This document shows positions 1,853 through 37,635 of a stretch of 64,000 nucleotides of DNA, piece by piece. The stretch covers positions 1 to 64,000 of the IMG/VR virus record IMGVR_UViG_3300023174_000002; one strand, written 5' to 3'. The notes under the pieces were generated by a model, which did not search any database, was not told the DNA's origin, and worked only from the letters and a program-made list of their open reading frames with translations. Source of the DNA: a virus. Positions within the stretch are counted from its first letter, which is position 1. Each line of letters starts with the position of its first letter. Both the position numbers and the translations under genes were made by a program.

Positions 1853-1912
1853 TTGTATGAAGCAAGCCGAAAGGCGCATTGGACGTGGGTTCGACTCCCA
1901 CCTGGTCCACCA
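1853..1912 (+). ncRNA. tmRNA acceptor piece (3' half)
   Basis: This half contains the 3' strand of helix 2, a small GCC-GAAA-GGC hairpin, the T arm GTGGG-TTCGACT-CCCAC, the 3' acceptor strand, discriminator A and an encoded CCA at 1910-1912. About 60 bases is in the normal range for acceptor pieces of permuted tmRNAs. The 5' end is placed at the first base that pairs with the coding piece, directly after the preceding 17-pair hairpin. Confidence 0.85.
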
Positions 1913-2009
1913 AAGATATATTGCACCAATCACTGCACGGGGTTACCTAGAGACTGCAGCTCGAAAAGCACATAGTAAGAAGTGCAGGTAACAGCAGTAT
2001 ATCTTTGAT
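1913..2009 (+). other. Intervening segment of the permuted tmRNA
   Basis: This 97-base spacer joins the CCA end to the 5' acceptor strand and should be removed on maturation. Its ends form a nine-pair helix (1912-1920 with 1998-2006) that extends the acceptor stem region. Inside, CTGCAC (1933-1938) can pair with GTGCAG (1982-1987), and GTTACC (1942-1947) with GGTAAC (1987-1992). The two pairings cross and share one base, so they are alternatives or form a pseudoknot. Confidence 0.75.
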
Positions 2010-2145
2010 GGGCCAGTCATGGTTTCGACAGTGTGATAAGTATGCAAGTGGACAACTCGGTAGGCGATCTCCGCAAAAGAAGCAAAACATATAAATGCCA
2101 ACGATGAGGTATTTGCCCTAGCCGCTTAAGCTAGTGCCGAGGTCT
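2010..2145 (+). ncRNA. tmRNA coding piece (5' half, mRNA-like domain)
   Basis: It begins with the acceptor strand GGGCCAG, then the D-loop region, the 5' strands of helix 2, a GC-richer stretch (2058-2074) where the first pseudoknot is expected, an A-rich single strand, and the tag frame. CTAGC (2118-2122) pairs with GCTAG (2130-2134) and presents the TAA stop codon in the loop, as in the conserved helix 5 of tmRNA. The piece is followed by a strong terminator hairpin. Confidence 0.85.
2097..2129 (+). other. tmRNA tag reading frame (ANDEVFALAA)
   Basis: The codons GCC AAC GAT GAG GTA TTT GCC CTA GCC GCT TAA give ANDEVFALAA. This has the canonical ten-codon length and the ALAA end recognised by ClpX and ClpP in proteobacteria. 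The preceding ATAAAT and the GCC resume codon fit the usual context. The frame is also open upstream from GCA codons at 2082 and 2073, so a longer tag cannot be excluded, but the ten-residue tag best fits the family. Confidence 0.85.
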
Positions 2146-2192: not shown

Positions 2193-2810
2193 ATGACTAA
2201 AAACTCAATAGATGATGGTTTTGTCCTCGACAATAGTATTAGTCGTGGGTTTCGTAAGTGCAGTAGCGCACTTTACGAATTTTATTTAAGTGGATTAATT
2301 ACAGGTCCAGAAGATTACATTGAATGGTTTAATACTATTCGTAGTGCTAATGACCAGGATGTAGTAAAAATTTATATTAATAGCAGTGGTGGCGATCTTA
2401 ATACTGCACTACAATTTATGCGTGTGTTAAGTGAAACACAAGCTACTGTAGTATGTAGTGTTGAAGGTAGCTGTATGAGTGCTGCTACAATGATCTTCTT
2501 ATGTGCTGATATATTTGAAGTAACACCACATAGCCTATTTATGTTTCACAATTACAGTGGCGGAATCTTTGGCAAAGGCGGAGAAATTTACGATCAAGCA
2601 GTATTTGAACGTGAATGGTCTAAACAGTTCTTACAATATATTTATAAAGACTTCTTAACTAACAAAGAAATTGATAGTTTGCTGGAAAATAAAGATTTGT
2701 GGTTACATAGCGAAGAAGTAAGTTGCAGGGTAGAAAAACTTTGCGAAGCTAGAAGGGCTGAGAGGCATGATGACACCGTGTGTGATGATTTGCAAAATCA
2801 ATCCGAATAA
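2193..2810 (+). CDS. ClpP-like serine peptidase
   Basis: The 205-residue length equals a ClpP subunit. YINSSGGDLNTALQF matches the ClpP segment that shapes the oxyanion region. Ser96 sits in GSCMSAAT, in the place of GQAASMGA. His119 is in MFHNYSGG (ClpP IHQPLGG). Asp168 is in NKDLWLHSEEV, matching ERDRFLSAEEA. The spacing (96-119-168) closely follows the E. coli triad 97-122-171. There is no signal peptide, so action is cytoplasmic. In phages such proteins often act as head maturation proteases, but this one lies 16 bases after the tmRNA terminator and far from any head gene. A link to tagged-protein turnover is my inference. The ATG has a weak ribosome site. Confidence 0.85.
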   Translation: MTKNSIDDGFVLDNSISRGFRKCSSALYEFYLSGLITGPEDYIEWFNTIRSANDQDVVKIYINSSGGDLNTALQFMRVLSETQATVVCSVEGSCMSAATMIFLCADIFEVTPHSLFMFHNYSGGIFGKGGEIYDQAVFEREWSKQFLQYIYKDFLTNKEIDSLLENKDLWLHSEEVSCRVEKLCEARRAERHDDTVCDDLQNQSE

Positions 2811-2949
2811 TTATAAGTGTATAGGTTGTCACAGAACTTTAGAAGAAATCACAGACTGGCAGTATTATACTGACGAACAAAGATTAAGAATAATGGATAG
2901 AATAGACAATGAATCCTTTAGTAACTGTAATAACACCAACAACAGGTAA
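2767..2949 (+). CDS. DUF1289-family small cysteine protein
   Basis: A 60-residue product with TPCVMICKINPNNYKCIGC, then RTLEEITDWQYYTDEQRLRIM. This matches the DUF1289 pattern: SPC-x3-C-x6-C-x-GC followed by RTL-EI--W---S--E-R-I. Four cysteines suggest a metal or Fe-S site, but the family function is not known. The start overlaps the end of the peptidase gene by 44 bases with GAGAGG just upstream; ATG at 2770 has the better spacing. The end overlaps the glycosyltransferase. Phage copies of this bacterial family are uncommon in my experience. Confidence 0.75.
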   Translation: MMTPCVMICKINPNNYKCIGCHRTLEEITDWQYYTDEQRLRIMDRIDNESFSNCNNTNNR

Positions 2950-3640
2950 CCCCTTATTAGGGCGAGCAATTGATTCTGTTTTAGAGCAGACGTATAAGCC
3001 TATTGAATATATTATTGTAATTGATGGCTGGAAAAATGAAGCTGCAGCTAGAGAAATTATTGCTAATGCACATAGAATGTGTCATGTAATTGTATTGCCA
3101 TTTCCAACTGGAATTGCTGGATATAACGGACATAGAATTTATGGTGCAATGAACTTTATTGCTCGCGGACAATACATCTGTTATTTAGACGAAGACAACT
3201 ACTATGATAAAAACCATATCGAGTCATTAGTCAATGTACTGAAACCAGAACATAAATGGGCATACTCACTAAGAAAAATTGTAGATGCAGAAAGCAATAT
3301 AATTTGTAATGATGACTGCGAATCATTAGGCCCTTGGACCAATGTACTTAATGATAATCTTGTAGATGTGGGTTGTTATATGTTGGACAAACAAACGGCG
3401 CTTGAAACAGCACCTATTTGGTATAGACGAGCCAGACATCCCGATGATCAACCTGAAGTAGATAGGGCTCTTTATCAAACTTTGTATTCTTTATACGGTG
3501 AAAATGCTGTAATCAGCAATAAGCAATATACATTAAATTATACAGCAGGTAATACTGTAAATAGCGTAAAACCTGAATTTTTTATTGACGGCAATAAAAA
3601 AATGCAAGAACTTGTTCCAGGTTATCCTTGGCGCGATTAG
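2909..3640 (+). CDS. Family 2 glycosyltransferase
   Basis: The 243-residue product begins with the GT-A signature LVTVITPTTGN, then a long helix (RAIDSVLEQTY) and the IIVIDGW strand. The metal-binding DxD is in YICYLDEDNYYD near residue 94. It would transfer a sugar from a nucleotide-sugar to an unknown acceptor. No membrane segment is present, so it is cytoplasmic. Phage GT2 enzymes modify DNA bases, virion proteins or host surface sugars; nothing here decides which. It overlaps the DUF1289 gene and ends only seven bases before tRNA-Val begins. Confidence 0.85.
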   Translation: MNPLVTVITPTTGNPLLGRAIDSVLEQTYKPIEYIIVIDGWKNEAAAREIIANAHRMCHVIVLPFPTGIAGYNGHRIYGAMNFIARGQYICYLDEDNYYDKNHIESLVNVLKPEHKWAYSLRKIVDAESNIICNDDCESLGPWTNVLNDNLVDVGCYMLDKQTALETAPIWYRRARHPDDQPEVDRALYQTLYSLYGENAVISNKQYTLNYTAGNTVNSVKPEFFIDGNKKMQELVPGYPWRD

Positions 3641-26395: not shown

Positions 26396-26435
26396 AAAAA
26401 AGCCCCTTAGTAGCAATACTAAGGGGCTTTTTTTA
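26396..26435. terminator. Bidirectional terminator between convergent operons
   Basis: AGCCCCTTAG pairs perfectly with CTAAGGGGCT around an eight-base loop, with A-run on the left and T-run on the right, so it works for both strands. It separates the rightward early arm from the leftward late arm. Confidence 0.93.
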
Positions 26436-27122
26436 ATTATTATAGGCTAAAATAATTTGTTTGCACATTTGACTGCGTACAATATCTTCGTCTAAAAATC
26501 TAACTACTTCAATATTTTTTAAACCTTCTAGTCGGTTGACTGCATCTTCTAATCCGCTGTCTATAATATCTACTTGTTTAGGGTCACCGCTTAGGATAAC
26601 TTTGCAGTTTTTACCTATACGGCTTAGCAGCATTTTTAACTCTATTTTAGTCAAATTTTGCGCTTCGTCTACTAAAATTACAGTATCGTCAAAGCTACTA
26701 CCACGCATAAAACCTATTGGTTTAGGCTCGATATTTTTATTTTTTAGTGCATATTGATAAAAACCGTGACCTAGTGTGCGGTTAAATACACTGTCAAAAG
26801 GCGCTAAATACGGAGCATATTTTTCATCAATAGCACCAGGTAAAAATCCCATACCGCGGCCGGTTTCTACGTTGGGTCTAGTAAGAACAATTTTATCAAT
26901 GCGTTTATAGAATAATTCGCAAGCAGCATAACTAGCGGCAACGTATGTTTTTCCTGTTCCTGCACTGCCAATTCCAAAAACTACGTCGCTGTTGTGTATT
27001 GCTTCAAGATAAATACCTTGAATATAATTAAGTGGTTTAACCTCAGTAAAAGTAGTTTTACTGGGCTTTTCAGATTTTTCGGATTTATCTTCGCGTGAAG
27101 CTTTACCAGAAGAAGGTTTCAT
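26433..27122 (-). CDS. PhoH-like ATPase
   Basis: The 229-residue product (from ATG 27122) has Walker A GIGSAGTGKTYVAA, LTRPNVETGRGMGFLPG and Walker B TVILVDEAQNL, followed by KVILSGDPKQVD, all typical of the PhoH core. PhoH proteins are ATPases linked to phosphate starvation and RNA metabolism. They are frequent in phages, but their role there is unsettled. A TTG at 27146 would add eight residues; the ATG is preferred because CAGGGA sits seven bases upstream. It is last in the late leftward transcript. Confidence 0.93.
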   Translation of the reverse strand: MKPSSGKASREDKSEKSEKPSKTTFTEVKPLNYIQGIYLEAIHNSDVVFGIGSAGTGKTYVAASYAACELFYKRIDKIVLTRPNVETGRGMGFLPGAIDEKYAPYLAPFDSVFNRTLGHGFYQYALKNKNIEPKPIGFMRGSSFDDTVILVDEAQNLTKIELKMLLSRIGKNCKVILSGDPKQVDIIDSGLEDAVNRLEGLKNIEVVRFLDEDIVRSQMCKQIILAYNN

Positions 27123-27142
27123 AGAAATCCCTGTGTGTTGTT

Positions 27143-27718
27143 TCAATTTAAATACTTTTCGTATTTTGTACTTCGTGTATTTAATACATCCTCCACATGA
27201 TGTCTGTTAATATCACAGGCACTACGATTTCCATATAGTGCAACTTTTGATTTTAAACAAAGTTTTTCTACGTTATCAAACCAACGGTTTGGATCACACC
27301 AGCTAGTTAATTTACAAGCTCTACGTTCATGATCCACACCACCCGCACCGCCATTATAGGCAGCATCAGCAAAAGCATATGCTTCACGTTTATCTACCAC
27401 ATGTTTATTAAAGTATTGGTAATTATCGCGCATCATTAGTGCTAGTGCACGAATCTGTAAGTCTGGCCTGTCATAAACTACCTGCCAGTTTAATTCACTT
27501 AATTCCCTAGGATATTTATACTTTAAGTCTGAAAGAGCATCAAACCTAATTGAGCCATCTGCTTTAAAAGCCCTGGTAATTTGTCCAAGTCCTGCTCCTT
27601 CTTCTCTAGCACTTTTTAGTCTACTACGACTATTCCAGCATTTGCTGTGAGTTAGTGATATACAGGACTCGTGCTCAATTAAGCTACCAAGGTATGCGGC
27701 TTTGGGTGTTGAGCCCAG
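27143..27718 (-). CDS. Endolysin, lytic transglycosylase (SLT) type, non-standard start
   Basis: The open frame encodes about 191 residues beginning at a CTG codon at 27718, inside the end of the holin gene. SLT motifs appear in order: SLIEHESC near residue 12-19 with the catalytic Glu17, GAGLGQIT, and ADAAYNGGAGG. The first ATG in frame, at 27436, would remove the catalytic Glu and half the domain and leave only 97 residues. No ATG, GTG or TTG occurs between the upstream stop and the Glu, so CTG initiation coupled to holin translation is the best reading. It degrades peptidoglycan at lysis, released by the holin. Confidence 0.8.
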   Translation of the reverse strand: MGSTPKAAYLGSLIEHESCISLTHSKCWNSRSRLKSAREEGAGLGQITRAFKADGSIRFDALSDLKYKYPRELSELNWQVVYDRPDLQIRALALMMRDNYQYFNKHVVDKREAYAFADAAYNGGAGGVDHERRACKLTSWCDPNRWFDNVEKLCLKSKVALYGNRSACDINRHHVEDVLNTRSTKYEKYLN

Positions 27719-37173: not shown

Positions 37174-37635
37174 TTAAGCTACTGTAACTTTCCAAGTAAT
37201 AACTAAGGTATCCAGTGCACCCTTGTTAATAACAGCAAACACTGTGCGGCAAAGCATTGTGCCACTAGTACCTGCGTTAAAAATACCAGCTTCAGTAACT
37301 GCACCTGTACCTGTACCTGCAGCAAATGTAGCAACATACTGAATGCTATCATTTGTAACAGTTGTAGTTACTAGTGTTGGCGAACCAGCATCTAGTGCAA
37401 CACGTGCAAGTTGACTACCTAATGCAGTATCTGCAACTGCAGCTGCAGTACTACCACTACCAATTCCCATATGAGACATAGCAGTAGCTGAGGCGTCTTT
37501 CATACGACTAGCAATATATGCTAGTCCTGTACCAACAACAGTATTAACGTGTTGATATTCTTCTTTAACGTTGCCAGCAGCATCCAAGAGTTTTACTTGC
37601 AAGACGCCATTGGCTTTTAGTGAATCATTTAACAT
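37174..37635 (-). CDS. Small virion protein, fibre/decoration-like
   Basis: From the ATG at 37635 the product has 153 residues; AAAGGAAA lies about seven bases upstream. A TTG or other start further upstream would overlap the previous gene and is unlikely. Segments such as VKLLDAAGNVKEEYQHVNTVVGTG and SHMGIGSGSTAAAVADTALG resemble phage proteins of tail fibre or side-tail annotations. It lies between two fibre genes. No enzyme motif. Confidence 0.65.
   Translation of the reverse strand: MLNDSLKANGVLQVKLLDAAGNVKEEYQHVNTVVGTGLAYIASRMKDASATAMSHMGIGSGSTAAAVADTALGSQLARVALDAGSPTLVTTTVTNDSIQYVATFAAGTGTGAVTEAGIFNAGTSGTMLCRTVFAVINKGALDTLVITWKVTVA

Follow-up and report, generated by a model that had tools for sequence, protein, structure and literature searches.

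The window analysed here, a 64,000-nucleotide stretch of DNA comprising bases 1-64,000 of a 99,208-base IMG/VR virus record, carries on its plus strand, in this order, a promoter-like sequence, a short open reading frame (ORF), two tRNA genes, a cloverleaf-like RNA element, a two-piece tmRNA gene and a gene for a ClpP-type protease. The sigma-70-like promoter (TTGAAA-17-TATAAT, 1314-1342), recognised by consensus match only, agrees with the consensus at 11 of 12 positions and is the top site in the region. A similar TTGAAA...TATAAT lies upstream in the relatives L012 and L017, and the site likely marks the start of a transcript running from the ORF through the tRNAs to the tmRNA. The ORF (1377-1592, 71 amino acids) lies 5' of the tRNAs and has homologues in 20 of the 67 neighbourhoods compared; it had no match in Pfam or PHROG. 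The genes for tRNA-Thr (TGT, 1600-1672) and tRNA-Tyr (GTA, 1676-1763) were called by both ARAGORN and Rfam. Between the end of tRNA-Tyr and the tmRNA acceptor piece, positions 1761-1852 are predicted to form a cloverleaf-like RNA with three small hairpins in a 20-bp helix (z-score -6.8). This element, which is exchanged for a short hairpin in four relatives (L006, L012, L013 and L017), had no Rfam match of its own, and the idea that it is an unusual tRNA was dropped because no tRNA match was found in Rfam; it is possibly a 5' processing element.

The first-pass annotation had described the segment that follows as a tmRNA gene in permuted order, with the acceptor half and its encoded CCA before the coding half, and had proposed a search with the Rfam tmRNA models. 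Two of these models exceeded their gathering scores: RF04321 (tmRNA_permuted) matched over its full model length at 1851-2129 on the plus strand (133.1 bits, E 7e-26; gathering score 47), and RF01850 (beta_tmRNA), the clade-specific model that matches, did so at 1793-2178 (129.8 bits; gathering score 84). ARAGORN independently called a permuted tmRNA with the tag ANDEVFALAA, and the same order can be read from the letters themselves. The acceptor piece (1853-1912, first one or two bases uncertain), delimited by sequence, Rfam and co-folding, contains the T arm, the acceptor 3' strand CTGGTCC (1902-1908), the discriminator A (1909) and the encoded CCA (1910-1912). An intervening segment of 97 nt (1913-2009) is predicted to be removed; its paired ends extend the acceptor helix (fold z -5.7 for the segment together with the acceptor strands). 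The coding piece, placed by the same three lines of evidence, starts with the acceptor 5' strand GGGCCAG (2010-2016), has a TGGTTTCGACAG region near its start, where GGTTTCGACAG begins at 2021, and extends to an approximate 3' end at about 2170.

All seven pairs of the acceptor stem proposed earlier form, including the G3-U70 pair of alanine identity. Two further helices of seven pairs each had been proposed as well, and both inter-piece helices appeared, along with the acceptor stem and T arm, when the two excised pieces were co-folded (-76.0 kcal/mol, versus -67.5 for the pieces apart), one of them having six pairs rather than seven. The tag frame (2097-2129), identified by ARAGORN and in the co-fold and encoding the same tag in close relatives, ends in a ClpX-type degron followed by the stop codon, and the TAA lies, as had been noted, within the loop of a CTAGC-CGCTTAA-GCTAG hairpin. 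At 2146-2177, a 3' hairpin that falls within the beta_tmRNA match and is kept in relatives is followed by a T run, forming the end of the coding piece and a terminator-like site; a terminator scan there gave a signal no greater than in shuffles. No riboswitch was found in the window by the Rfam scan. Judged from its sequence, this two-piece tmRNA gene is real and functional-looking, and of a known kind.

Comparison with relatives agrees with this assessment. Among close relatives both mature tmRNA pieces are nearly invariant, and the spacer between them is hypervariable in sequence with its complementary ends kept, which fits a removed RNA, because such variation is expected of RNA that is cut out. 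Spacer length ranges from 55 to 194 nt in phage relatives, versus 24-49 nt in a comparison set of bacterial genes, obtained mostly with a length-limited pattern (covariance-model finds, 24-42 nt). The tmRNAs linked to ClpP, described below, have five different acceptor stems, with two-sided changes at pairs 4-69, 5-68 and 6-67 that keep the pairing, and G3-U70 is present in 27 of 28; the remaining one resembles a chance match. The constancy of position 3-70 tells more than the pairing, since the search for stems demanded pairing. A further compensated acceptor stem with G3-U70 was read separately in L005. In one close relative (L015, 3665-3980), the acceptor stem is compensated, the D region is altered and the T loop is GGCAGTT, not TTCGACT; these changes may reflect a variant T-D contact or a chimeric assembly.

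Conservation across many phages, with compensatory changes and the reading frame retained, argues against the gene being a silent remnant acquired from a host, a reading to which we give almost no credence. It is also very improbable that the phage tmRNA is a decoy competing for SmpB or alanine charging and so damping host ribosome rescue. A precedent for such a role is the tmRNA of mycobacteriophage DS6A, which barely exceeds the tRNA-like domain, and such a molecule inhibits tmRNA (PMC4131195, PMC11915505), but a decoy has no need of a tag frame, a stop, a resume region, acceptor covariation or a 3' hairpin, and all of them persist in the window gene and its relatives.

Gene content indicates that the window phage is a T5-like phage. 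Its DNA polymerase and that of T5-like Vibrio phages share 50% identity, and its replication genes (NAD ligase, helicase, polymerase, SbcCD, flap endonuclease) stand in the T5 order, as in Vibrio phage Thalassa. The T5-like polymerase and gene order also point to siphovirus morphology, and together with the ARAGORN and Rfam calls they bear out the earlier statement that a permuted tmRNA lies beside tRNAs in a siphovirus. The same phage carries genes for PhoH (window 26433-27146, minus strand), a small Hsp20 heat-shock protein (L206 9676-10095, plus strand) and a glycosyltransferase-like protein (window 2909-3640, plus strand). In a host search, the tag-codon pattern had no matches among genome contigs, and a looser tmRNA pattern returned mostly chance matches that are not tmRNA, plus about 30 permuted genes, mainly betaproteobacterial. 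As a sample of 300 Burkholderiales genomes gave only 16 with RF04321 over its cut-off, the host is not readable from the tmRNA.

The gene downstream (2193-2810, plus strand), to which the first-pass annotation had made no reference, begins 64 nt beyond the stop codon of the tag, 16 nt beyond the terminator-like T run, and encodes a ClpP-type serine protease of 205 amino acids, as indicated by PF00574 (39.9 bits, cut-off 20.2), phrog_1827 and its AlphaFold fold. The model aligned to solved ClpP with a TM of about 0.6 and is of low confidence at the N-terminus and at residues 124-132. A candidate triad assigned via known ClpP, Ser96-His119-Asp168, is invariant in 22 homologues, and the catalytic triad of the phage protein is presumed to be intact. 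Curvibacter phage P26059A was considered as a relative and rejected: it has a ClpP, but only four window-phage ORFs match in the 44 kb read.

We examined the tmRNA-clpP arrangement in 80 viral loci fetched by ClpP alone, from which 77 whole viral records were searched for RF04321. The model exceeded its cut-off in 54 of these 77 records. In all 53 records where positions were measured, tmRNA and clpP were on the same strand; the tmRNA was within 3 kb of clpP in 50 and no more than 250 nt upstream of it in 33, such a tight position having a chance of about 0.13% for a randomly placed single gene in a 100-kb genome, with the caveat that related genomes are not independent trials. By comparison, the commonest protein-family neighbour occurred in only 32 of 67 neighbourhoods. 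A T5-like polymerase with 70-96% identity was present in 29 of the IMG/VR records searched. Four other records (G017, G018, G021 and G008) have few ORFs in common with the window phage and many in common with each other; G017 (167 kb) combines a DNA polymerase of the gp43 type with a contractile tail sheath and baseplate proteins, and on these grounds the group is T4-like. Its ClpPs are 54-64% identical to the window ClpP, and a SleB-type endolysin gene often lies between tmRNA and clpP in this group. The tmRNA-clpP pairing is present in two otherwise unrelated lineages, T5-like and T4-like. In a literature search on tmRNA and ClpP in phages, with most subscription papers and preprints outside its scope, no account of the pairing turned up.

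A SleB-type cell-wall hydrolase (PF07486; a relative of L206:7668-8168, minus strand) is often near phage permuted tmRNAs (L033, L069, L072 and L074; among loci picked by tmRNA pattern, L108, L132 and L147), an observation with no baseline that was set aside as evidence.

In the reverse direction, ClpP was nearby in only 2 of 97 loci picked by the tmRNA pattern; phage tmRNA therefore does not need ClpP, and the link is a feature of certain phage groups. That most phage tmRNA loci have no ClpP near is what would be expected if the tmRNA were functional but independent of ClpP, carried as cargo of the tRNA block, where it would supplement ribosome rescue during the destruction of host DNA and messages by the phage; it would then adjoin clpP through synteny passed down by descent or because both genes enter the same insertion hot spot. 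The position of the tmRNA directly 3' of two tRNA genes agrees with such an origin, and the endolysin gene often found near phage tmRNAs suggests, again with no baseline, a general cargo region. We nevertheless consider this account rather unlikely, given the shared strand in every measured record, the proximity of the two genes in two unrelated lineages whose tmRNAs belong to different branches, and a best protein neighbour that is less widespread than the tmRNA.

How often the two genes were joined was approached through a tmRNA tree, a quick reconstruction with long branches and weak deep support that was used solely to establish that the tmRNAs next to ClpP occupy several distinct branches. 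Distances between tmRNAs and between ClpPs correlated with r 0.80 over all 25 and with r 0.38 among 13 divergent representatives (90 of 5000 shuffles were as high), a drop which indicates that the correlation is mostly due to close relatives. The several branches and the weak agreement of distances fit repeated joining or replacement at one place, a pattern that weak resolution could mimic. Because synteny may simply be inherited within each lineage, the independent joining events are few.

The reading we favour, and hold to be probable, is that of a working phage two-piece tmRNA that uses host SmpB and host alanyl-tRNA synthetase and is possibly coupled to the phage ClpP. Processing by RNase P and tRNA 3' enzymes, charging by alanyl-tRNA synthetase, delivery by SmpB and a ClpXP tag are established tmRNA biology. 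Under this model, the 71-amino-acid ORF, tRNA-Thr, tRNA-Tyr and the tmRNA would be carried on one transcript, in which host tRNA-processing enzymes would cut 3' of the CCA (1912) and RNase P would cut 5' of G1 (2010), freeing the 97-nt spacer, and the acceptor stem and inter-piece helices would hold the two pieces together. Host alanyl-tRNA synthetase would charge the tmRNA via G3-U70, and the charged tmRNA would act with host SmpB in freeing ribosomes stalled on broken messages, adding ANDEVFALAA. SmpB (PF01668) was absent from 28 viral records, including that of the window phage (G000), records that may be incomplete, and host SmpB must therefore serve. Phage ClpP with host ClpX would be the probable peptidase for ANDEVFALAA-tagged proteins, making a phage tag-and-degrade pair. 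We infer the functional coupling of tmRNA and ClpP, as we do expression, processing and tagging. More tentatively, T5-like and T4-like phages may carry a dedicated tag-and-degrade module, in which a two-piece tmRNA and the phage's own ClpP, recurrently joined, redirect trans-translation and proteolysis.

T5 destroys host DNA early in infection, and the resulting truncated messages and stalled ribosomes would give such a phage a plausible need for the tmRNA. If the tag-and-degrade module is real, it could provide amino-acid recycling or quality control during the destruction of the host genome. The recurrent pairing with ClpP is a concrete hint, the first found, at how a phage benefits from a tmRNA, and the gain hinted at is a say in what becomes of tagged proteins, in addition to ribosome release. 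It makes the open question of the purpose of phage tmRNA testable via two adjoining genes. The tmRNA itself extends an already known class of phage RNA; what appears to be new is the clpP directly downstream, recurring in two phage groups.

That a permuted copy within a siphovirus tRNA block is unusual, as the first-pass annotation had suggested, does not stand. A 2022 survey in the Melnitz paper counted 53 two-piece molecules among 133 unique phage tmRNAs, 50 of the 53 from marine or aquatic phages (PMC9004378), and a 2025 tmRNA database holds 79 unique phage tmRNAs (PMC11915505). In addition, a single tmRNA pattern matched at least 120 viral IMG/VR contigs, and RF04321 exceeded its cut-off in isolated phages of Stenotrophomonas, Synechococcus and Xanthomonas, namely Menderavirus, Synechococcus phage BUCT-ZZ01, and Xanthomonas phages Rb1 and XacN1. 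With so many phage two-piece tmRNAs known, the phage location is not new. The same annotation had left two origins open, a host with a permuted gene or independent permutation. Descent from the betaproteobacterial type is supported by RF01850 exceeding its cut-off; independent permutation was dropped, the sequence being recognisably beta-type and matching that model end to end. In the tmRNA tree, the window sequence lies closest to those of other phages, and Cupriavidus is nested among phage sequences.

Several phage permuted tmRNAs (L092, L102, L113, L161, L162 and L179) have, by ARAGORN only, unusually long predicted tags of 28 amino acids, ANADTFDFSAMSFTGNTVSGKSKVALAA and its kin. Permuted tmRNA genes occur on both chromosomes of Cupriavidus pinatubonensis HN-2, with two more on its plasmid p2, and one was called on a plasmid of C. 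necator UYPR2.512 (Cupriavidus loci L296, L358, L346, L379 and L388). In the jumbo phage XacN1 (AP018399), two permuted tmRNA matches of equal score, at 37231-37530 and 356026-356325, are perhaps in terminal repeats.

The bacterial beta_tmRNA genes of Cupriavidus and the Gallionellaceae ssrA have in common with the window gene an ANDE-type tag, G3-U70 and a 3' hairpin with a GCCUUGU.ACCAA loop. The bacterial spacers are 24-49 nt, whereas that of the window is 97 nt, and the promoter-like sequence of the beta_tmRNA model is unmatched in the window tmRNA. Menderavirus, BUCT-ZZ01, Rb1 and XacN1 are of phage types other than that of the window, and their tags differ where read; clpP is far from the tmRNA copies in XacN1, and none was noticed within the stretches read of the other three. 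Erwinia phage KEY (Demerecviridae) likewise has a ClpP-family gene in a T5-like genome, but there it sits between the dNMP kinase and holin genes, in a record without a permuted tmRNA, which speaks against the proposed coupling. Melnitz and Pelagibacter phage Mosig are among the tailed phages (PMC9004378) that share with the window phage a permuted two-piece tmRNA and an aquatic association. In Melnitz, a myovirus, the tmRNA is of alphaproteobacterial type and comes with a glutamine riboswitch, whereas the window tmRNA is beta-type and follows tRNA genes in a T5-like siphovirus, with clpP next to it.
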